23,531 bases of DNA from a virus: the IMG/VR virus record IMGVR_UViG_3300042154_002140, positions 1 to 23,531 of that record; one strand, given 5' to 3'. Under the pieces are notes generated by a model that saw only the letters and a program-made list of their open reading frames with translations, was not told the DNA's origin and ran no database searches. Shown here piece by piece: positions 571 through 21,100 of the stretch (position 1 is its first letter; every line of letters starts with the position of its first letter). The translations under genes were made by a program, and so were the position numbers.

Positions 571-1437
571 TCAGGAGAGCGTGAACCGCTCCTCAGAGGT
601 CTCAAGGATCCCATGTGAATCGAGATCGTCAAGAAATTCTTTTTGTTTCGCCCCCTTTTCACCCTTCGGGGCTTTATCAGAAATAGCCTTGGTAAGCTTA
701 CCCAGCGGAAAGGTTGCCGTGGAAAGCAATTCAGCTTCCGTAAGTCCGTAACCCAGAGCTACTTCGACAAGCTTCTCGTTGTCCTCACAACGCTTCATGC
801 ACCCCATGGAACGCAGCCGCAAGGTGGGGAACTCAAGCCCGTCCTTCGCCATAGCCACCACCTTGGAGCGGAATGTGTCTGCCCAATTGGACACAACCTT
901 AGCGATTCCGTAGACGTTCTCAAGCGTCTCAGGGTCTGCACCTTCTGGGTCGAGCGAGTCAGGTAGGCTCACGCCCAGCTTGTCTGCGACCCCAAGGACG
1001 AGACTTCCCAACGCGGGGCAGTTCGACTCGTAAGCACAGAAGCGGCAGTTCTGAGTCGGGTTCAACTCGTCCAATGACGGTGTGCCACAAGCCCACTTGG
1101 AGCGAACATAGGCAGCACGGGCGATTACCACGCTGACCTGTTCCCGCAAGGTCTCAAGTTCACTGCGGTGAAAGGTATGGTTGGGGGTGTCGTTGTAGAA
1201 GGGGATGTAGAAAACGAACGTGACGCTTTCAATGTCACTGAACTTCTCAAACACCCCGATGGTGTAAGCCTTCGCTTGCCAGTTCTCAGAGGGGTGATCA
1301 ATCTGTGATACCCCCGTTTTATAATCAGCAAGGAGTGCCTTCTTATCTTTGATCGTAAGACGGTCGCAGGTTCCGTAGGTCTTAAGACCGTAGTTGAGGG
1401 GGATCTCCAATTGGATCTCGTTGTATTCTGTTATCAT
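571..1437 (-). CDS. RecB/Cas4-type PD-(D/E)XK nuclease, C-terminal subunit of a split enzyme
   Basis: 288 residues carrying the catalytic core of a RecB-family (PDDEXK_1/DUF2800-like) nuclease. GTCD contains Asp25. LLADYKTG supplies the Asp38-x-Lys40 pair, and NWQAKAY gives the Gln54-x3-Tyr58 motif. Cys131, Cys134 and Cys140 form the CxxCx5C arrangement typical of the C-terminal ligands of the [4Fe-4S] staple in Cas4, AddB and Dna2. The usual N-terminal quarter, with the first cysteine and the GxxxH motif, is absent here; it is encoded by a separate gene at 1899-2144. The start ATG overlaps the stop of the preceding gene as ATGA. Such enzymes process DNA ends in recombination and are common in phage replication clusters. 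The 3' end holds an imperfect GGAG/CTCC hairpin. Nuclease family membership is well supported; function as a two-chain enzyme is inferred. Confidence 0.85.
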   Translation of the reverse strand: MITEYNEIQLEIPLNYGLKTYGTCDRLTIKDKKALLADYKTGVSQIDHPSENWQAKAYTIGVFEKFSDIESVTFVFYIPFYNDTPNHTFHRSELETLREQVSVVIARAAYVRSKWACGTPSLDELNPTQNCRFCAYESNCPALGSLVLGVADKLGVSLPDSLDPEGADPETLENVYGIAKVVSNWADTFRSKVVAMAKDGLEFPTLRLRSMGCMKRCEDNEKLVEVALGYGLTEAELLSTATFPLGKLTKAISDKAPKGEKGAKQKEFLDDLDSHGILETSEERFTLS

Positions 1438-1652
1438 TGATTTTCTCGTTTAAGATGCTTCACAAATTCTCTGACATTCTTGGGGTTAGCGGTAGCCCAA
1501 AGGCATCCCCGCTCTTGACGACACCAGTCCTCATACAACATGGTCAAGGTTTCGTCTGGGAACTTGGAAAGAAGCTCATGCTCCTTGAGGAGCCTCATAT
1601 CTTTCATCTGCGACTTGTCGAGCCATTCTCCGACAGTGTGTGATTCAGTCAT
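1434..1652 (-). CDS. Small hypothetical protein lying between the two nuclease halves
   Basis: 72 residues, charged and predicted mostly helical, with an N-terminal TVGEWLDKSQMKDMRLLKEH segment and a basic C-terminus (VKHLKRENQ). I do not recognise the family. It starts inside the 3' end of the winged-helix gene (8-base overlap) and its stop overlaps the start of the nuclease C-terminal gene as ATGA. It is therefore almost certainly translated from the same message and coupled to both neighbours. Its position between two parts of one enzyme suggests either insertion into an ancestral nuclease gene or an accessory subunit; the sequence alone cannot separate these. Two cysteines (WCRQERGC) are present but do not form a clear metal site. 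Confidence 0.7.
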   Translation of the reverse strand: MTESHTVGEWLDKSQMKDMRLLKEHELLSKFPDETLTMLYEDWCRQERGCLWATANPKNVREFVKHLKRENQ

Positions 1653-1902
1653 TGTCTTTTGTATTTAGTTGCCAAAGTGTTCCTTTACGGCAGTTGTTGG
1701 ATGATTCCTTGAGAAGTCGGCGGGGATCCCGTGTCATTACCAAGTGTTGTTTTATCTCGTTGAGAACTTTCGAGATGTTGGTTGCCTTCGGCCACGCGAG
1801 AGCTTCAGTCAAGTCCCGGATGTGCCACTGCTTCCCATCGCTTAACAACAGCAGGATTTTATCGCGTAAGTCTGCCCGTTGTCCGTATCGGAGAGATCTC
1901 AT
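1645..1902 (-). CDS. Small winged-helix-like DNA-binding protein
   Basis: 85 residues. LRDKILLLLSDGKQWHIRDL, then a helix-turn-helix-like ALAWPKATNISKVLNEIKQH, then a two-strand wing (VMTRDPRR, KGTLWQLN) gives the order expected of a winged-helix domain covering almost the whole protein. The family is inferred from this pattern, not from a specific match. It begins by ATGA overlap with the stop of the nuclease N-terminal gene (1899-2144) and is followed by the 72-residue gene with an 8-base overlap. It could regulate the cluster, or act as a DNA-binding partner of the split nuclease that surrounds it. Confidence 0.7.
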   Translation of the reverse strand: MRSLRYGQRADLRDKILLLLSDGKQWHIRDLTEALAWPKATNISKVLNEIKQHLVMTRDPRRLLKESSNNCRKGTLWQLNTKDND

Positions 1903-2144
1903 CCTGCGGTGAAGGTCTCAAGGAACTTGGTCTCCATATCCACGATCTTGTCGTAGATCGAAACTTCTTCCTCATCGTGCAGAGCAGATGGGTCGCGGGT
2001 TTCGAGAGCTTCATGGATGCGTGTCCCCTTTTCTGCGGCGGCACTGCTGCCACTCAGTCCTTTGTAGCCGGGACACCCAGCGACATACTTCAGTGAGCTT
2101 GGGGAGAACTCAGCGTGTCCCCGGTTTGCGTGGTCTGGTTTCAT
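1899..2144 (-). CDS. RecB/Cas4-type PD-(D/E)XK nuclease, N-terminal subunit of a split enzyme
   Basis: 81 residues that look like the first quarter of a DUF2800/PDDEXK_1 nuclease. HAEFSPSSLKYVAGCPGY matches the usual N-terminal 'HA.lSPSs...w..CPgs' segment. Cys24 sits where the first iron-sulfur ligand of Cas4/AddB-like nucleases lies. G40-T-R-I-H44-E is the GxxxH motif, normally followed by a helix. The protein then ends with a helix (VDMETKFLETF) exactly where the beta-strand leading to the catalytic Asp should begin; that strand opens the protein encoded at 571-1437. The ORF is intact, with clean ATGA overlaps at both ends, so this is not a simple frameshift wreck. It has no catalytic Asp or Lys of its own and would need the other chain to be active. 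Confidence 0.8.
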   Translation of the reverse strand: MKPDHANRGHAEFSPSSLKYVAGCPGYKGLSGSSAAAEKGTRIHEALETRDPSALHDEEEVSIYDKIVDMETKFLETFTAG

Positions 2145-3555: not shown

Positions 3556-3785
3556 GGTTTCTCTTGTGCGTTTCGTTCGGTGGGGGTGGGTTTATCAAAT
3601 GGGATACCACGGGATGCCCTGTATCTGTTGCGGTTGTATTGACGAGATTTCTCAGCGCAGCTAGCACAACGGTTCTTGGTTCCGCCTTCGCCACCGAAAG
3701 GGTAGCGTCCGCACTGTAGGCACATGCCTTGGTCAATCTTTTGTTTCTGCCAGTTATTCATGGTTCTAGTATCTTTGTTAGGCAA
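3552..3785 (-). CDS. Small zinc-ribbon protein
   Basis: 77 residues with two CxxC pairs: MCLQCGRYPFGG, then NRCASCAEKSRQ, spaced 16 residues apart, as expected for a four-cysteine zinc ribbon. The C-terminal half is basic and polar (SRQYNRNRYRASRG). Such small treble-clef or ribbon proteins are common in phages and may bind nucleic acid or a host protein. The start overlaps the 3' end of the helicase gene by 8 bases, and the stop overlaps the 25-residue membrane ORF. The initial MPNKDTRTMNNWQ contains a second Met that could be the true start. Confidence 0.75.
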   Translation of the reverse strand: MPNKDTRTMNNWQKQKIDQGMCLQCGRYPFGGEGGTKNRCASCAEKSRQYNRNRYRASRGIPFDKPTPTERNAQEKP

Positions 3786-5097
3786 CCCCGTGCAGGGTTG
3801 TTAAATTTTCAATCTTCCGCTGGAGTGCCTTGATGACAACCTCCTCGATGGAGTCTGAGGCGAACAAGACCTTCTGGATCGCATCGGACTTTGCGCCATT
3901 GCGGTGGATTCGCCCAAGGCACTGCACATGGTTTTTCGCGGAGTAGCTGGGCGAGATCAATGACACCCGTGGGTATTCCCCCCGCAGATCGTGGAGCGAG
4001 ATACCAGTTCCTCCTGCGGCGATATTGACCACTACGACTCTATCCTCGTCCCGCTGGAATCGGTCGATGATGTTCTGCCTGTCGTCGGCTGTCTGGTTGC
4101 CCACGATCTTCCCACACCCTAGGAGTTGGGCAAGGGCATCTGCCGTGTCGGAGAAATTGACAAAGATCACCACGGACTTTCCTTCCAGCAAAAGATCCTC
4201 TGCCATCTCTGCGATGTCGTGGACCTTGAGCGACTCCGCTAACTGCCGTGCGCGTAGGATGTTTACGAGCATGATGTTGTCCTTGTCCTCAACGGTTCCG
4301 TTCTCGATGTAGTCCTCCATGATTTGGGGCGTAAGCCCAAGGTCATGGAATGCCTTGCGGATCTTGGACAGGTTGGAGAACTGGATCGGTTCGTAGTGGA
4401 CCATGTTCTTCCGGAACGAATCGGGGAAGTCAGAAATGCTGAGTTTGTGCGCGGAGTGTCCGTCTGCCTCGTAAAGCTCCGTGCGGATGTTGGAGAGGTA
4501 TCTTTTGGCGACGAAGTCCCACTGACCCCATGCGTTCCTCACACAACCATTGCGTAACATCCATGAGAAAAAGTTAGGTAACCCGTTCTCCGATTTGTTG
4601 AGGTTGTGCAGTTGCATCGCATAACCCAGCCCACGCATCTCTGCTGGATTCTCCGCTGCCGTAGCGGACATGGAGTGGGTCACATACCCTTGCTGGAGCA
4701 GCGAGATAAACAACTGCGCGTTCTGCGTGTATGGACCCTTGCACTTATGGACTTCGTCAAGCAGGACGAGGGTGTTCTTGGGCAGCTTCCAAGTCATTAG
4801 CTTCGCCCCTTGCTTGGACATCCACGGGGTTTTACCACCCCGGATCTTCTCGTAGTTGGTCACGAAAAGTGGTGTCACGTTGCACTCAGCCAACTCACGC
4901 TCCCATGAGGGGATCACTGCCTTTGGGCATAGGACGGCAACGTGGTTACCTTCCTGCACCCACTCCATGGCGAGTCTCGCGGCTACCACGGTCTTGCCCG
5001 TTCCGGTCGAGGAGGTGTCGAGGGTCGATTTTCTGGACAGGTGTTTCGTCCGGAAGAAGTCTTTTGCCTCCACTTGTTTGTCGAATAATTGCTTCAC
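3778..5097 (-). CDS. SNF2-type superfamily 2 DEVH helicase/ATPase
   Basis: 439 residues with the full SF2 motif set: Walker A STGTGKT (Lys35), the Walker B/motif II box DEVH at 114-117, motif III SAT at 144-146, motif V NIAAGGTGISLHDL, and motif VI QCLGRIHRNG at about 392-401. The two RecA-like lobes are compact, as in phage SNF2-like helicases; there is no nuclease or Zn domain. It probably translocates on or remodels DNA during replication or recombination, fitting its place after the Holliday junction resolvase. The start is GTG at 5095-5097. No in-frame ATG exists upstream, and the first internal Met (residue 44) would remove the Walker A motif. The 46-base gap to the resolvase stop has no obvious ribosome-binding site. 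Confidence 0.93.
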   Translation of the reverse strand: MKQLFDKQVEAKDFFRTKHLSRKSTLDTSSTGTGKTVVAARLAMEWVQEGNHVAVLCPKAVIPSWERELAECNVTPLFVTNYEKIRGGKTPWMSKQGAKLMTWKLPKNTLVLLDEVHKCKGPYTQNAQLFISLLQQGYVTHSMSATAAENPAEMRGLGYAMQLHNLNKSENGLPNFFSWMLRNGCVRNAWGQWDFVAKRYLSNIRTELYEADGHSAHKLSISDFPDSFRKNMVHYEPIQFSNLSKIRKAFHDLGLTPQIMEDYIENGTVEDKDNIMLVNILRARQLAESLKVHDIAEMAEDLLLEGKSVVIFVNFSDTADALAQLLGCGKIVGNQTADDRQNIIDRFQRDEDRVVVVNIAAGGTGISLHDLRGEYPRVSLISPSYSAKNHVQCLGRIHRNGAKSDAIQKVLFASDSIEEVVIKALQRKIENLTTLHGVA

Positions 5098-5143: not shown

Positions 5144-5623
5144 TTACTTTTGTTTTCTCCAATAACACGCGATAAGATAAGCGTCGATCATCCCGTCATG
5201 GGGGATTGTCGCCTTGTCTGATTTTGTCCAATCCTCGCCGGGAGATAGCTGTTCAGCTACGGTCAGCGCAGCAGCCTTCGTTCCCTTGCCCTTGGATCCT
5301 ACCAGCATATTCTTCTGCCATTGGTGGACTTCAACAGGGACCGTTTGCCACCCCTTCATCTCACACGCCCCTAGGATCTTGCCGAAGTTCATCGCCATCG
5401 ACCTCATTGCCTGAGAGCTTTTGGCGTGGCGCAAGGGTTCCTCGATCACGATACAGGGTTCAGTGTGCAGGGCGAGGATCCAATCGCGGAGTGCGAGGAC
5501 ATCCACTTCGGACTTGCCGTTCCGTTTGAGGATCGGCATGACTCGCTTCGCGATAATCTTGCCGTGACTACGCGAGATTGCGCAGAGTCCTCCGTCGATC
5601 CCATTATCGATCCCGATGATCAT
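5144..5623 (-). CDS. RuvC-like Holliday junction resolvase
   Basis: 159 residues, the usual length for phage RuvC-type resolvases. The RNase H-fold acidic residues are in place: Asp6 in IIGIDNGIDGG, Glu61/Glu62 in IVIEEP, and Asp143/Asp147 in HDGMIDAYLIA. The enzyme would cleave branched DNA, either to resolve recombination intermediates or to debranch concatemers before packaging. The ATG overlaps the TGA of the HTH/small terminase gene, linking it to packaging; the SNF2 helicase follows. The family is highly recognisable. Confidence 0.9.
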   Translation of the reverse strand: MIIGIDNGIDGGLCAISRSHGKIIAKRVMPILKRNGKSEVDVLALRDWILALHTEPCIVIEEPLRHAKSSQAMRSMAMNFGKILGACEMKGWQTVPVEVHQWQKNMLVGSKGKGTKAAALTVAEQLSPGEDWTKSDKATIPHDGMIDAYLIACYWRKQK

Positions 5624-6333
5624 CCTTCGTCCTCGACCTCGATATCATCGACCTCGACATCGACCTCATCTTCAACTTCGTCGCTTTCGGCATCAACGTC
5701 GATGACCTTGCCCTTGTTCTGCCGCAGTGCCTTGACATCGATGGTGTGGGTGGGGACTCCCCCTACGCCCACCGCACCTCCGTTGAGCGCAGCCTTGCTG
5801 TTGGTCAGGATCGATACATCGATGCTGATCTTGCCGCGACCACCACCAGACCGTGCATCAAGGCCGAAGCTGCGCCGGATGATCTGGTCAAGTTGGTCAA
5901 GCTCGCGGATGTTCTTGGCAGGTTTAACCAACTTAAGGCTATCCCGCATTAGCTTCACCGCACCAGCGGCAATGTAGCTCTGATACTTCTCAGCGGGGGA
6001 TGTCTGTGCAGCAGCGTGTTCCAAGATCGCCAGATCTTCTGCTTGCCGTTCGTTGGTCTTCTCAAGCCGGATCGAGTCACTGAGAACCCCGGTCAGGTTC
6101 GTGGTAAGGACTTCCTCCACAGGATCAACTTTCGGTTCTCCTAGTTTTGTGTTAGTGTGATAGCGACTCTCCTTTGGAGGAACCCCTAACTCACGCAACC
6201 ATCGACGGAGGGTTGATTTCGAGATCTGCAACTCCTGCATGATGCGGGGCTGCGGGATATCCTGATTGTGCAGATCAATAGCCCTCTGCCTTAACTGATC
6301 CTTTTGGAGTTGGTGTTTAGTCAATTTGGGCAT
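5620..6333 (-). CDS. HTH protein with acidic tail, probable terminase small subunit
   Basis: 237 residues. A homeodomain-like helix-turn-helix lies at about 15-50 (AIDLHNQDIPQPRIMQELQI then SKSTLRRWLRELG). A long helical centre (about 75-170, with LDQLDQIIRRSFGLDARSG) could oligomerise, followed by a Gly-rich linker. The end is strongly acidic (VIDVDAESDEVEDEVDVEVD and on), encoded by short GA(C/T)-GTC-type DNA repeats. N-terminal HTH, helical oligomerisation region and position beside the large terminase gene suggest the DNA-recognition subunit of the packaging motor. Unusually, it is divergent from the large subunit rather than in tandem. It could instead be a transcription factor acting on the shared upstream region. 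Confidence 0.6.
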   Translation of the reverse strand: MPKLTKHQLQKDQLRQRAIDLHNQDIPQPRIMQELQISKSTLRRWLRELGVPPKESRYHTNTKLGEPKVDPVEEVLTTNLTGVLSDSIRLEKTNERQAEDLAILEHAAAQTSPAEKYQSYIAAGAVKLMRDSLKLVKPAKNIRELDQLDQIIRRSFGLDARSGGGRGKISIDVSILTNSKAALNGGAVGVGGVPTHTIDVKALRQNKGKVIDVDAESDEVEDEVDVEVDDIEVEDEG

Positions 6334-6360
6334 ACTTGTTTGGTCAATTTAGGTATACTT
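6320..6360. promoter_or_regulatory. Direct repeat in the divergent promoter region between the HTH gene and the terminase gene
   Basis: GTCAATTTGGGCATACTT at 6320-6337 and GTCAATTTAGGTATACTT at 6343-6360 match at 16 of 18 positions, with a period of 23 bases (about two helical turns). The first copy includes the start codon of the leftward HTH gene. The second lies in the 46-base region that must carry promoters for both directions and contains a plausible TATACT -10 hexamer for the rightward transcript. The spacing fits two protein-binding sites on one face of DNA; the neighbouring HTH protein is an obvious candidate binder. Confidence 0.5.
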
Positions 6361-6379
6361 TTAATAACAGATCCCCATT

Positions 6380-8164
6380 ATGGCAAACAAGTCAAGGCTG
6401 GAGCCGAAGGTTGATCCAAAAACCCAGTTGATGCAGGTTGGTGATTTTACGATCCCACCCACCACATTATTGACTGGGTTACTCTTTGGGTTCGCAAAAC
6501 ACAACGTCGTAAAGGAGAAGGAGTATTACTTCTGGCGGATCTGCGATGTCCTGTGGAATGACCCTGACAGGTGTCCAGAGCCGATGATGGTCAAACACCC
6601 GTGGGCGGAGTTGATGATCCGGGAAGCTCTGGAGCATAAGTATCTGTCCATCGGCGGGTCTGCCAGTTCCGGTAAGTCACATACCATGGCGGCGTTTGGG
6701 ATTGTCAATTGGTTATCCCAACCCAACGAGACCCTGATCCTGATGACCTCAACGACCCTACAAGGTGCGCGGACACGTATCTGGGGTTCCGTGATCTCGC
6801 TGATGTCTGTCATTGAAGATTTCGCCCCCTGCAAAATTCGGGACTCCATCGGCAGTATCGCCTACACCAACGACAAGGGGACGCTGATCGAACGGGCGGG
6901 GCTGCGTCTCATCGCGGCAGAGAAGTCCAAGACCCGCGAAGCAGTCGGGAAGTTCATCGGTATCAAACAGAAGAGAGTATTCGTTATCGCGGATGAGTTA
7001 TCAGAACTCAGCGAGGCGATTCTCAATGCGGGTCTCTCCAACTTGTCGAAGAACGAAGAGCTACACATCATCGGCATGTCGAACCCCTCCTCCCGGTTCA
7101 ATGCCTTCGGTATCTGGTCTGAGCCAAAGGACGGGTGGAACAGTGTCGATGTCCAGCTACACGATTCGTGGGGGACCAAGTGGGGTGGTCGCTATGTGAG
7201 GCTCGACGGTGAGCGCAGCCCGAACATCGTAGCGGGGGAGACCCTGTATCCTTGGCTACCCACCTTTGATAAGGTGGAGGAGGACAAGGCGATTCTTGGC
7301 GAAGACTCACGGGCCTACATGCGAATGGTCCGCGCCGTGTTCTTCGACGGGGATGAGAACGAGAGCATCTACAGTGAGACCGAACTGGTCAACACCGGAG
7401 CGGTGAGTCCTGCGGATTGGCAGTCGAAGCCAGTCCTTGTCGCGGGGCTTGACCCAGCCTTCACCAACGGGGGTGACCGAACAGTTCTTTTTTTTGCCCA
7501 GATCGGCTACGAGAAGAGCGGGAGCTTCTCCATCGAGTTCCTTAACCATTACTTGCTGTCGGATGATGCCACTAACAAGGCAGTGCCGCGAACCTACCAG
7601 ATCGTTAAGCAGGTTGTTGATCTCTGCAAGAAGCACAAGGTGTCGGCGGAAAACCTTGCGGTCGATGCCACGGGCGCGGGATCCCCGTTCTGTGATGTCC
7701 TAGCGGGGGAGTGGAGCGGCGACTTCCTGCGTGTCAGCTTCGGGGGCAAGGCATCGGACAGGCGCGTCAGTGCAAACAGCAAGTTGGTTGGTGAAGAACT
7801 TTACGTTAACCGTGTATCCGAACTCTGGTTCGTGGGTAAGGAACTGATGCGGACTCGACAACTGCGGGGTGTATCTTCTGAATTGGCGCGAGAGATAACG
7901 AACCGGAACTATGATTTGGTCAAATCTGGGACGCTTCGGGTCAAGGTCGAGACCAAACCGGAGTATAAGGCGCGGATGGGTCGAAGCCCGGATTTGGCTG
8001 ATGCAGCCTTCCTTGCGCTCGACTGCGCCCGTCAGCGGATGGGGTTGGTGGCCGTGGAACCCCGAACCCAGAATCAGGAATCAGGGTTCAAGAGACACGA
8101 AACGAAGAGCATCAAGTCGTTGAGAGTGAGTCTGTCATGCGACGATTCCACACTCCTTGATTAG
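6380..8164 (+). CDS. terL: Phage terminase large subunit (packaging ATPase and nuclease)
   Basis: 594 residues with both catalytic domains. ATPase domain: Walker A GSASSGKS (93-100, Lys99), Walker B VFVIADE (Asp205-Glu206) and coupling motif SNP (234-236). C-terminal RNase H-like nuclease: Asp358 in AGLDPAF, Asp429 in VDATGAG, and Asp538/Asp541 in SPDLADAAF. It powers DNA translocation into the prohead and cuts the concatemer. The length is normal and no domain is missing. The last roughly 40 residues are polar and poorly conserved in appearance. Only 46 bases separate it from the divergent HTH gene. The leader (AATAACAGATCCCCATT) has no Shine-Dalgarno. It is followed by a non-coding region rich in inverted repeats. 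Confidence 0.96.
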   Translation: MANKSRLEPKVDPKTQLMQVGDFTIPPTTLLTGLLFGFAKHNVVKEKEYYFWRICDVLWNDPDRCPEPMMVKHPWAELMIREALEHKYLSIGGSASSGKSHTMAAFGIVNWLSQPNETLILMTSTTLQGARTRIWGSVISLMSVIEDFAPCKIRDSIGSIAYTNDKGTLIERAGLRLIAAEKSKTREAVGKFIGIKQKRVFVIADELSELSEAILNAGLSNLSKNEELHIIGMSNPSSRFNAFGIWSEPKDGWNSVDVQLHDSWGTKWGGRYVRLDGERSPNIVAGETLYPWLPTFDKVEEDKAILGEDSRAYMRMVRAVFFDGDENESIYSETELVNTGAVSPADWQSKPVLVAGLDPAFTNGGDRTVLFFAQIGYEKSGSFSIEFLNHYLLSDDATNKAVPRTYQIVKQVVDLCKKHKVSAENLAVDATGAGSPFCDVLAGEWSGDFLRVSFGGKASDRRVSANSKLVGEELYVNRVSELWFVGKELMRTRQLRGVSSELAREITNRNYDLVKSGTLRVKVETKPEYKARMGRSPDLADAAFLALDCARQRMGLVAVEPRTQNQESGFKRHETKSIKSLRVSLSCDDSTLLD

Positions 8165-8208
8165 CTTCCCGGTGCAGGATACAGGGATCAGGAGGGTGTT
8201 TTTGTTTT

Positions 8209-8307
8209 CTACCCCCCTACATAAAAAGTATTTTCTAACTACTGGGTTACGCTTATACGTATAACTGTAACCCACCCCCTACGGGGACTTTTCAAATAGG
8301 GGGGTAG
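8209..8307. repeat. Nested inverted repeats downstream of the terminase gene
   Basis: The gene-free stretch 8165-8477 contains an outer inverted repeat, CTACCCCCCTA at 8209-8219 with its exact complement TAGGGGGGTAG at 8297-8307. Inside lies a 30-base near-perfect palindrome at 8244-8273, with arms GGGTTAC/GTAACCC and core TTATACGTATAA. Next to it is a small CCCC-TAC-GGGG hairpin (8276-8286) followed by ACTTTT, a weak terminator-like arrangement. The rest of the gap, 8310-8435, holds a GGGG/CCCC hairpin near 8372-8383 and a repeated GTTGCATA (8358, 8398) but no ORF or tRNA that I can see. Confidence 0.6.
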
Positions 8308-8435
8308 GATCGTGTGTAGTCGTTGTGGTAATTCAGATAGCCCATATTAAAGCCTACGTTGCATATGGAAGGGGGCGCACCCCATACACAAGGCAGGGTT
8401 GCATACAGTGCCCACATGTAGCCTCGCTTACGCAC

Positions 8436-8850: not shown

Positions 8851-11043
8851 ATGAGCGGTAAAATTAAGATCCACTCTAATAGCGTTGGTAAGGTAGTCAT
8901 ACCCGCCAAAGGTAGCATCGTTGCGGTTTCCGGAAAACAAGGTCCAAGTGGACCTGCTGGTGCGCCGGGGGCTGCTGGTGCTGCGGGAGCGACCGGACCC
9001 GCTGGGGCGACCGGACCTGCTGGGGCAACAGGCGCGACTGGAGCAACCGGAGCGACCGGGGCAACCGGAGCTACGGGGGCTGCTGGACCTAACACGGTCA
9101 CTACGTCCACGACCACTAACATTACGGGTCTTCTCAAAGGTAACGGCAGCGTGGTCTCTGCGGCGACTGCTGGAACCGACTACGCTGCTGCTGCACATAC
9201 CCACGCAGGAGATACTCTTGGACCCGTCGAGAAGATTCAGTTCGACACGACCCCTGCTGGTGTTGCTACAACCGTTGGTGACCTGATCTGGAACGTGGGC
9301 GAAGAGACTCTCGATCTCCAGCTAGACGGGTTCGTGATGCACGTTGGGCAGCACCTGATCTACCACGCTCAGAATAGCACCGGGACGGCTATCGCAAAGG
9401 GTGCGCCCGTTATGTTCGCAGGAACGACCGGGGGTAGCGGAAAGCTGCTCATCAAGCCTTGGGACGGGCTAGGCCCAGCGACTCTGTTCATGGGGATCAC
9501 CGGGGAAGCGTTCGCGAACGGCCACCAAGGGTCCGTAGTCGCTTTTGGGAAAGTCACAGGCATCCAGACCAACGGAGCTAATTACGGTCAGACTTGGACA
9601 GACGGGACCATTGCCTACGTGGGGACAACCGCAGGAACCCTGACTAATGTAAAACCTAGCTACCCTAACCCTATCGTTGAGGTTCTAGCAGTGGTCAACG
9701 CACACGCTAGCAACGGTATCGTGTTTGTCCGACCCAACTATATCCTCGCGGATACTTTCGCGCCCACAAGCTCGACCGATAACGCTATCGTCAGGTTCGA
9801 TGGGACGACCGGGAAACTCATCCAGAACTCAGGCATCACTGTTGCTGACGGCGCTACCGGAACTCTCTCTGGCACGAACTCTGGGGACGTTACCCTCGCG
9901 GGGACTCCATCTTACCTGACCATTTCTGGGCAAGAGATCACCCGCAACCAAGTCAACCTGACCGCAGCTTCTGCGCACGTTACCGGGACGCTCCCTGTGG
10001 CGAATGGTGGCACTGGGCAAACTGCTCTAAGCTCAATCGACGCTGCCGATTTTGGTTCGGGAGCCGCAGTGGATAATTACATTTTGGCAGCCGACGGTTC
10101 AAGTGGCGCGACTTGGGAGTCGCCAGCCGCGTTAGGTATTGTCGCCACAAATTCAAGCGCATCATTAAAAGACCTTGCGCTAAATCCCGATACCCTTACA
10201 TCGACTCTGGCAACCAGCGCTCTGAACATTTCTCAAACTTGGAATACAACGGGCGTTCCCACTTTAGTCAAAGGCTATGTCGCAAACACAGCAAGTGGGG
10301 CGAATTCAAAACTATTTGATTTTGGCGTTGACTCAACAACCCGCCTAAATCTTGATTTGTCTGGGCATCTTTACACTAATGCCTCCGACGATTATGCGGC
10401 CTACGGGTTTTTAAACTCGGCTCGCGGGATCGGTTACAGTAGCGCATTTGAAAAGATGGTAATGTATGCCAATGCTTCTGGGGTCGTGAACGCAGGTGTT
10501 GATTCTAACGGCCTTTTTTTACCTGAGACGGGTAAGCTTTCATGGTCTAGTTCCGGGTGGGCTAGCGCCAGCGATCTGTTTTTGTCACGGGCTGCGGCTG
10601 CGACGTTGCAACTGGGCGTCAACCATGCCACCACGGCGACCCGGCAGATCATCAAAGGACACAACGTGTCAACGGGAAACAACACAGGCGCGGAGTTAAA
10701 CTTTCGTGCCGGGAATGGGGCTAACGGAGTGCCGGGAACTCAGGGCATCTGGTTTGGCAATACGGCGAGCAGTTCAATGAAGATTTATGATTCTTTAGCT
10801 GGGGTGGTCCTTGGTGGTTATTACAATGAAGGTCTTCGCGGCTTTCTCCGTATGGGTGGGGGATCGGGGGGAGAAGTGACTCTTGCAAGTAATTCGACCG
10901 ACGGAAATATCGCTTTAACTCCTCACGGAACTGGAAAAGTGAAGTTCGGGACTTTCGTCACCTCCGCATCTCACACTGCATCTGGCTACATCGAAATCCG
11001 GGATGCAGGAGGAACCATCCGAAAACTTGCTGTCGTTTCTTAA
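8851..11043 (+). CDS. Collagen-like phage tail fibre protein
   Basis: 730 residues. After a 30-residue beta-rich start there are about 17 Gly-X-Y triplets (residues about 31-81, many GAT), which should form a trimeric collagen-like shaft. Fibre-type modules follow: LLKGNGSVVSAATAGTDY, STDNAIVRFDGTTGKLIQNS and GTLPVANGGTGQTALSSI, all common in phage tail fibres and adhesins. The end, GYIEIRDAGGTIRKLAVVS, is a recurring fibre C-terminus. There is no signal peptide, no visible intramolecular chaperone and no enzymatic motif. The likely role is host receptor binding. The part after about 10030 has visibly more A/T-rich codons than the shaft half, suggesting a swapped distal module. Two small genes follow closely. 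Confidence 0.88.
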   Translation: MSGKIKIHSNSVGKVVIPAKGSIVAVSGKQGPSGPAGAPGAAGAAGATGPAGATGPAGATGATGATGATGATGATGAAGPNTVTTSTTTNITGLLKGNGSVVSAATAGTDYAAAAHTHAGDTLGPVEKIQFDTTPAGVATTVGDLIWNVGEETLDLQLDGFVMHVGQHLIYHAQNSTGTAIAKGAPVMFAGTTGGSGKLLIKPWDGLGPATLFMGITGEAFANGHQGSVVAFGKVTGIQTNGANYGQTWTDGTIAYVGTTAGTLTNVKPSYPNPIVEVLAVVNAHASNGIVFVRPNYILADTFAPTSSTDNAIVRFDGTTGKLIQNSGITVADGATGTLSGTNSGDVTLAGTPSYLTISGQEITRNQVNLTAASAHVTGTLPVANGGTGQTALSSIDAADFGSGAAVDNYILAADGSSGATWESPAALGIVATNSSASLKDLALNPDTLTSTLATSALNISQTWNTTGVPTLVKGYVANTASGANSKLFDFGVDSTTRLNLDLSGHLYTNASDDYAAYGFLNSARGIGYSSAFEKMVMYANASGVVNAGVDSNGLFLPETGKLSWSSSGWASASDLFLSRAAAATLQLGVNHATTATRQIIKGHNVSTGNNTGAELNFRAGNGANGVPGTQGIWFGNTASSSMKIYDSLAGVVLGGYYNEGLRGFLRMGGGSGGEVTLASNSTDGNIALTPHGTGKVKFGTFVTSASHTASGYIEIRDAGGTIRKLAVVS

Positions 11044-18100: not shown

Positions 18101-21100
18101 TGCACCCACACCGACTCCTGTTGCCGCTGCTGCACCTGCCGCTGCTGCACCTACACCGACCCCTGTTGCCGCTGCATCTACACCGACCCCTGTTGCCGCT
18201 GCATCTACGCCGATCCCTGTTGCCGCTGAACCTGCTTCCGCTGCACCTACGCTGACTCCTGTGGCTGCTTCCGCCACGACAACCCCAACCCGTCGAGCGA
18301 GACCAAGTGGACCTTTTGGGGCAGAGTCCGGGCGTATGCGATACACACCGTGGGCCAGAGCTACAAGCCCTGAGGTTCCAGAAGCTACTGTAGAACAAGG
18401 TGAAGAGATCATCAAAGCCATTGAGGAAGACTCAAGGAACCTCATGGACACGACCCTAGAGGTTGGGACGGATAACATCCCAAAAACTCCAGTTCCTAAT
18501 AACCCTAAGCTTAAACAACAGGCTGCTGCGGCTGCTGTTCAAGCTGGTCAGCAGACTAAATCCAAGTCAGCGAAGAATAAAAAAACAGCGCAGATGGGGG
18601 TTGTCAAAAGAGTTTCCGAAAAAGCTGGGGTTGATGCACAACAAGTCAGTCAACAGATTTCTGCGACACCCAATCGGACCCCACAACTAGTTACCAAGCA
18701 AGCTATCAAAAGCGAAACTGTAGAACCAAAAGACAACTCCAACAGCAATTCTGTTGTTGATGAAGAGGAGCTTGTAGAGTCGGCAGAGATTACTACGAGC
18801 AGTTTGGGTAACCTACGAGAACTGTGGAACGTCGTTAACAACATTTTTGATGTAAGTAGTGATCCCTCAACACGAAGCACGGATATTGTTGAAGGCACTG
18901 ATCTGGATCCTGATCAAGCGATTGAGCTTTCGCTTGTATCCGAGGATATCTACAAAATCTTTCCGGGTATACCAGAAAACCTTGCTACAGTTCCTACGGC
19001 TTCAAAAGATTTATTTAACTGGCTTCAAGATTTTGAAGGTTGGCTAGACCAACAGCAGTCTCAGCTTGAGATTGCACCGACGAAAGCTGCACCGACGAAA
19101 GCTGCACCGACGAAAGCTGCACCGACGAAAGCTGCACCGACGAAAGCTGCACCGACGAAAGCTGCACCGACGAAAGCTGCACCGACGAAAGCTGCACCGA
19201 AGAAAGCTGCACCGAAGAAAGCTGCACCGAAGAAAGCTGCACCTAAACGGGTAAGAACCCCCAAACCCGGAGACGTTGTTGATAGTTCTGGCAGCGTGGT
19301 CGAACCTACGCTTGACGATCAGATCTCTGACTTTTTGATTTCGGAAAACCTCGTTGATTTTGACAAGGAAGGAAATAAAAGTGGGTGGACACTAGAGTTG
19401 CCTACTGGACAAGTAGAGGAGCTTACTCTTTTTGCTGGATCCGGTGGAAGTAACTTTGCAGCTACGGCAGCAGCAATCAAGAGTGTGATAGTAGCGGGGT
19501 ATCCAGTCAAATTCTCCACGAACTATCAGTATGGATTAAAAGGCGTTAAGCTTACTAAAGATAACCTAAGCAAGCTTAATAAGTTTATCATTGAGCAGAT
19601 TGACCAACGCTATCCGAAGATCCCCCTACCGGATGCCCCCGGCAACTACACATCAAAGACTTTTTCAGATTCCTCTGGCAACAAACGCACGGTATACTTC
19701 CAGAACGATATCCCGCATTTCGATAATGATCCAGTTACTGCGAGACTTTTGATCGCTGCTGGACACACTGTTGTAGTCCCCAATATGTTCTGGGGGAATA
19801 TCAATAAGGCGATTAAAGTTCAGACATATGACGACGTAAAACGAGTCACACGGGTGCTTCGTCTTGATGCTAAGACTTTGATACCTGTTGCCATCGCTAC
19901 CACCAGCATAAACGTCCCTGCTGGAATCGCATACTACGACTCCGAGTCGTTTGATTACTGGAAGAGTATCTACAGTCTGTTCTGGAATGACAAAGACAAA
20001 ACCCAAGAGGTTGATTTCGGTATCAGTGAGGAAAAAGCCCTCATGTATTATACCGGAAAGGTTGGGAAGATAACCCTTAAAGACTACTTGACCAAAGCAG
20101 ATAACTTTGTTGGTCAAAAACAACTCTCCCCAAGAAGCTTTCTGTTGATTATCGATAACAACGCTGACCTGCTTCGACAAGCAAAAAATGAGATTATCGT
20201 TGAAGCGTATGGTCGCGCAATACAGGCGTTGATAAGGTCCAAGCTCAAGGGGCATGTAACCAAGTCAGGGGACAAAAACAACTGGGTGATCGGAGAGGGT
20301 GCTGTTGATGCCTTCAAAAACTTCTTGGTGTCCGTTGGGAAAGACCCTAACGAAGTGGCAGGTGCGCTTCGTGCAATGAATTTTGACAAGAACAAAACAC
20401 CGAAAAACGACAAGTTGTTTAAACAATATATCGCAAGTATTTTCAAGGGGCTTAATCAACTTGGTTTCGGAGACAGTGATTCCATCGATAAAATCTCTGA
20501 CAGGGTTATCGACCGCTACAGGAAGTTCATCAAGGAGTCGAGACTCAGGGAAGCTGTTTCAAATACGATAGCTATCGATAACTTCGCCAGACTGGCGGAT
20601 GCTCCTGTTTCGGTTTCGGTTGGTGGCGACTTGACTCGCATGTCCCTTGAAAGATATGCCGAGTTAACTAGTGGTGAAACACCACCTGACGTTGCCATGA
20701 TGCGTAAAGAAAGCGGGGGTTTCATCGATGAAATCTTGAATCTTTCTCCGATAAGCTTGCCGCCGGGAGCGATTGGAATTGGAGTTCAAGAAGTTACCGA
20801 ACCCCAACGACAGGTATGGACATCCCCTACAGGGGCTACTCTTTCCGAACCCATTTACTATGGTGGCAATAGGGCATTCATGGTTAGCAGCGTTATTGAA
20901 TATAGCCCTGCTGAAGGTGCATTGAATCCGGGAGATATCATTACGGAGATCAACGGTGAGTCTACTTCGCGCATTTACTTTTCAGATCTCCCAGAGAAAC
21001 TTCTCTACGGTAATCCCGGAGAAGAGGTAAACTTGCAGGTTATTCGCTTCGACCAAGCAACGAATAGTTATGCGGGAGGAAGCACTCCAGTAACCCTGAC

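Follow-up and report, generated by a model that had tools for sequence, protein, structure and literature searches.

The window, a stretch of 23,531 nucleotides of viral DNA, carries near its beginning a series of short genes on the minus strand, which are, in the order of transcription, a 69-aa gene (2141-2350), the N half of a nuclease (81 aa, 1899-2144), a gene for an 85-aa protein predicted to be winged-helix-like (inserted gene 1, 1645-1902), a gene for a 72-aa orphan protein (inserted gene 2, 1434-1652), the C half of the nuclease (288 aa, 571-1437) and a gene truncated by the window end (525-1). All junctions from the 69-aa gene through the C half are stop/start overlaps of the ATGA type, of 4-8 nt: one ATGA links the 69-aa gene to the N half and another links the N half to inserted gene 1, in each case with the stop of the first gene lying over the start of the second; inserted gene 2 shares 8 nt with the stop of gene 1, and its own end forms an ATGA with the start of the C half. 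These overlaps suggest that translation of the genes in the split locus is coupled. The 69-aa gene belongs to the same operon, and no counterpart was found in the loci where the nuclease is fused; the truncated gene lies in the gp2.5/DUF2815 position, between the nuclease and PolA, and gave no Pfam match to DUF2815.

The C chain matches the Pfam families DUF2800 (E 3.7e-19, profile positions 114-341 of 368) and PDDEXK_1 (E 8.1e-8, profile 111-247), while the N chain alone aligns with positions 1-61 of DUF2800 with an E-value of 0.11, under the curated cut-off; with the phrog_69 exonuclease profile, the N chain matches positions 78-143 (2.5e-5) and the C chain covers positions 193-444. When the two chains are concatenated, a single collinear DUF2800 match is obtained (8.9e-22, profile 1-341), which is better than that of either part; the scores are 12.1 bits for the N chain, 69.6 for the C chain and 78.2 for the joined chains, the curated Pfam cut-off for membership being 21 bits. 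The collinear matches and the gain on joining indicate that N and C are two parts of one protein, and both chains fall in the nuclease family. Thus, as judged from their sequences, the 81-aa protein represents the N-terminal part, and the 288-aa protein the C-terminal part, of a single DUF2800/PDDEXK_1 (RecB-like) nuclease.

The motifs of the family are spread over the two chains. The N chain carries Cys24, the first cysteine of the predicted cluster, and the GxxxH motif (G40-x3-H44), while D25, D38-x-K40, Q54-x3-Y58 and the cysteines C131-x2-C134-x5-C140 are in the C chain; together these residues comprise the catalytic D, DxK and QxxxY, the GxxxH motif and the complete iron-staple cysteine pattern. 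A first-pass annotation of the DNA had assigned all of them to these two proteins, and they are indeed found at the residues it gave, in minus-strand ORFs whose coordinates were right; it made no mention of the two intervening genes or of the fused relatives. In 84 distinct fused relatives none of the named motif residues varies. The same annotation had called the nuclease RecB/Cas4-type: the RecB-like family and a Cas4-like fold hold, but membership in Cas4 does not, since the C chain scores 14.7 bits against a cut-off of 65 with NCBIfam TIGR00372; the PADLOC Cas4 profiles gave only weak matches. The accurate name is "DUF2800 phage exonuclease".

A search with the C chain retrieved 30 viral loci, 24 of which encode the nuclease in one ORF and four in split form (L001-L004), the other two being ended by a contig edge. 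A second search, ranked on the N chain, gave 72 fused loci and four ended by a contig edge, and its split matches were again the contigs L001-L004. Across all searches the fused loci number at least 181, of which at least 123 differ from one another in the region of the junction; searches with fused queries favour fused loci, so that the relative frequencies of the two forms are biased, and several hundred further matches exist. The split form was present, among the matches listed, only in the window and in four other IMG/VR contigs, which have the same arrangement (N, winged-helix protein, 72-aa protein, C). Identity to most fused relatives is 70-78% for the N chain, compared with their N-terminus, and 46-52% for the C chain. 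The fused junction, e.g. FLNTIIGDAERTEYNEV in L005, aligns with ...FLETFTAG(stop) at the end of the N half and MITEYNEI... at the start of the C half, with a loss of about one residue. In a tree built with the 84 fused and the five split proteins, the split ones form a single, fully supported clade nested among the fused ones, which indicates that the split is a single derived gene fission; the root was placed at the midpoint, and the distant helicase-nuclease fusions, which are also in one piece, fall outside.

The five split contigs come down to only two separate lineages, which differ at about 20% of their nucleotides and have a dS close to 1 or higher between them. Purifying selection acts strongly on both halves: among the split contigs dN/dS is 0.056-0.110 for the N half and 0.081-0.141 for the C half (about 0.08 between the two lineages and 0.14 in closer pairs). 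The occurrence of the same arrangement in four other contigs, together with purifying selection on both halves, places the finding far beyond chance. All the contigs are metagenomic, which could speak for an error of sequencing or assembly, or for a pseudogene in decay; however, the same four genes are arranged identically in five contigs with up to about 20% nucleotide divergence, the four retrieved contigs stem from four differently numbered IMG data sets, and all frames are open and under purifying selection. Such a reading is thus extremely improbable, and the conserved arrangement refutes it for practical purposes.

Residue conservation bears on whether both chains are still in use. Taking as near-invariant the columns conserved at 98% or more in the fused relatives, the split proteins keep 57 of 59 (24/24 in N and 33/35 in C), and all 11 named residues are kept, including the four cysteines, GxxxH, D, DxK and QxxxY. 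One could suppose that the C chain alone, or neither chain, performs the nuclease work and that the N chain is vestigial or now serves another function, because the catalytic acids, DxK and QxxxY all reside in C; against this stand the complete retention of the near-invariant columns of N, its dN/dS, as low as that of the C chain, and its cluster cysteine and GxxxH motif, invariant in the 84 relatives, which make this supposition improbable. Faster evolution after the split was also considered and rejected: in a rough comparison limited to the six relatives that share all nine genes, the rate ratios are 1.81 for the C half and 1.56 for the N half, within the 1.20-3.07 range of the neighbouring genes. 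That one nuclease is divided between two genes, each of which holds some of its cysteine and catalytic motifs, as the first-pass annotation had proposed, is therefore strongly supported by the collinear profiles, the one-ORF relatives, the single derived split, and the selection on both halves and conservation of their residues.

The two inserted genes are themselves under purifying selection, with dN/dS of 0.05-0.10 for gene 1 and of 0.06-0.16, where computable, for gene 2. The AlphaFold2 model of the gene 1 product (pLDDT 68) has an H-H-H-E-E topology, with helices at residues 6-20, 28-34 and 43-56 and strands at 61-66 and 76-81; its nearest folds are the Zalpha and MarR/PadR winged helices (best E 0.007), so that the protein is modelled as winged-helix-like. 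Inserted gene 2 has no family in Pfam (above cut-off), PHROGs, NCBIfam or PADLOC. No homologues of the inserted genes were found outside the split contigs in IMG/VR, in the flanks of the fused relatives, in INPHARED or in the four family libraries, and a sequence search for solved structures returned only chance-level matches. Neither protein has an HNH or GIY-YIG match in Pfam, PHROGs or NCBIfam, and no insertion-site duplication was found at the ends of the insert.

Mobile elements occur close to the nuclease in its fused relatives. In L006 a free-standing HNH_3 gene (5193-5753) lies between the helicase and the nuclease, overlapping the nuclease start, and 22 other loci also have such a gene at this place; these 23 loci, in which the HNH gene is directly upstream of the fused nuclease, suggest a homing hot spot next to the DUF2800 nuclease. 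The locus has thus been visited by such elements, and nothing ties them to the present insertion. L022 encodes a family A DNA polymerase (5628-8345) with an in-frame insert of about 300 aa between GLLAEN and CAQGLARDIF, which begins with Cys and ends with HN ahead of the next Cys, and which is probably an intein.

These elements, together with an insertion that is almost exactly clean with respect to the fused forms, as for an intron, would agree with removal of the insert by RNA splicing, protein splicing or ribosome bypass, in which case a one-piece nuclease would still be made and there would be no true split. However, an Rfam scan gave no match to any intron family even at a permissive E-value, and an intron was rejected; the several stops in the N frame across the insert, together with the change of frame between the halves, exclude an intein and led to the rejection of read-through as well. 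Moreover, the insert is wholly coding, with overlaps of 4-8 nt, which leaves no non-coding room for a ribozyme, and both its genes are under purifying selection. For ribosome bypass of about 460 nt we know of no precedent. Removal of the insert is thus very unlikely, and a true division into two proteins is the preferred reading.

The fold was modelled with AlphaFold2 on the fused relative L006, from an alignment of 17 sequences (pLDDT 81; pTM 0.59, moderate). On this model the split site maps to residues 81-85, the loop between the helix at 59-80 and the strand at 86-97; the N part corresponds to three helices, while the C part contains the core sheet, the later helices and the CxxCx5C motif. 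A Foldseek search of the PDB with the same model returned AdnAB, RecE, MGME1, SSO0001 (a Cas4), the Cas4-Cas1-Cas2 complex, AddAB and Exo5, with modest to low TM-scores; a RecB-like PD-(D/E)XK core fold is thus recognised on the fused-relative model, with TM-scores that are modest.

The gene order RuvC-like resolvase, SF2 helicase, nuclease, small protein, PolA and primase is common to split and fused phages. DUF2800 nucleases commonly sit in a duf2800-gp2.5-polA module (PMC8093625), and in L001 the nuclease is followed by a syntenic gene for a 206-aa protein, which has no DUF2815 match, and then by PolA. The helicase of the window (3778-5097, minus strand, upstream of the nuclease halves) was recognised by Helicase_C (7.1e-11) and phrog_62 (4.8e-41), and is 38-40% identical to the N-terminal part of larger proteins of four distant relatives, in which helicase and nuclease form one ORF of about 700-825 aa (L026:3217-5550, L027:4546-6885, L028:1627-4104, L029:4402-6885). 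These single ORFs suggest that the two activities act together in end processing, and that the SF2 helicase and the DUF2800 nuclease may constitute an end-processing helicase-nuclease; the fusion recalls the logic of AddAB and Dna2, with a different helicase superfamily.

Other features of these genomes were observed. L001 contains, upstream of its split nuclease, a gene for a 131-aa protein weakly resembling SprT/metalloproteases (4328-4723), located where the alignment between the window and L001 is interrupted. The window also encodes a 730-aa protein (8851-11043) with collagen-like GATGATGA repeats near the N-terminus, possibly a tail fibre, and a 2790-aa open-ended ORF with a Lys/Pro/Ala-rich tandem repeat of APTKA units at 19061-19264. 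The best matches of the terminase among cultured relatives are only 22% identical, and the phage lineage thus appears to be uncultured. The host search gave three MAG matches, in different bacterial phyla; these are probably binned viral contigs, and no host was therefore assigned.

The explanation that we consider very probable is gene fission by the two-gene insert, followed by reassembly of the N and C chains in trans around an iron-sulfur staple shared by both. The ancestor would have been a one-piece gene for a DUF2800-type RecB-like exonuclease, in a phage replication/recombination operon, and a single break would have occurred when the two-gene cassette inserted at the loop that leads from the third N-terminal helix into the first core strand. 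Coupled translation would now yield two separate chains, which would join non-covalently into one nuclease; to it the N chain would contribute three helices, Cys24 and the GxxxH motif, and the C chain the PD-(D/E)XK core along with Cys131, Cys134 and Cys140. These three cysteines of C and Cys24 of N would together bind an iron-sulfur cluster that staples the chains to each other. With the neighbouring SF2 helicase, the predicted nuclease most likely trims DNA ends, feeding recombination and replication. The putative metal site could instead hold zinc or a [2Fe-2S] cluster.

The iron-sulfur staple of Cas4 and AddB is bound by four cysteines and is needed for protein integrity, and Sso0001 turned insoluble when any one of the four was changed (PMC3466216). 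Activity is known to persist in phage enzymes that have been split, as for NrdA of Aeh1 and gp43 of phage 25 (PMC2988022). Reassembly in trans appears well founded, as an inference, in view of both the Cas4/AddB staple and these enzymes, active though split by insertion.

The split nuclease is a variation on kinds of system already described and does not form a class of its own. As in the DUF2800 (PF10926)/PHROG 69 exonucleases (PMC8093625), both chains are collinear with the profile and the operon contains a helicase, a gene in the gp2.5 position, PolA and primase; unlike the relatives sampled, which are single polypeptides, there are two here, with two genes in between. The motif order C...GxxxH...D...DxK...QxxxY...CxxCx5C is that of AddB, Cas4/SSO0001, Exo5 and Dna2 (PMC3466216), and the fold search of the fused-relative model returns AddAB, Cas4 and Exo5; unlike in these iron-staple nucleases, the predicted staple cysteines lie on two proteins, and the C chain scores below the Cas4 family cut-off. 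The genes-in-pieces enzymes of phages, such as the Aeh1 NrdA (mobE insertion), the T4 topoisomerase (mobA insertion) and the split gp43 of Aeromonas phages (PMC2988022), are similar in that the gene is contiguous in relatives, is split by an insertion and has conserved pieces, and stop/start overlaps suggest coupled translation. Unlike Aeh1 nrdA and T4 gene 39/60, the insert consists here of two small genes, without a homing endonuclease; the enzyme is also a different one, with a split predicted metal-cluster site. A search of the open-access literature returned no report of a RecB-like iron-staple nuclease with its metal-cluster site divided between two genes.

A further, doubtful possibility is that the winged-helix protein and/or the 72-aa protein are now part of the system, e.g. 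as subunits or as regulators of the joining of the halves, and that the inter-chain iron-sulfur cluster acts as a switch of assembly, which may be redox-sensitive; if so, the switch would keep the nuclease off until needed. Split ribonucleotide reductase, topoisomerase and DNA polymerase are already known in phages. If the two halves reassemble, the locus would provide a natural split nuclease with cluster-dependent assembly, as well as a point of division, shaped by evolution, at which a conditional nuclease could be split, and it would allow a direct test of whether the staple is able to keep the two parts of the fold joined.
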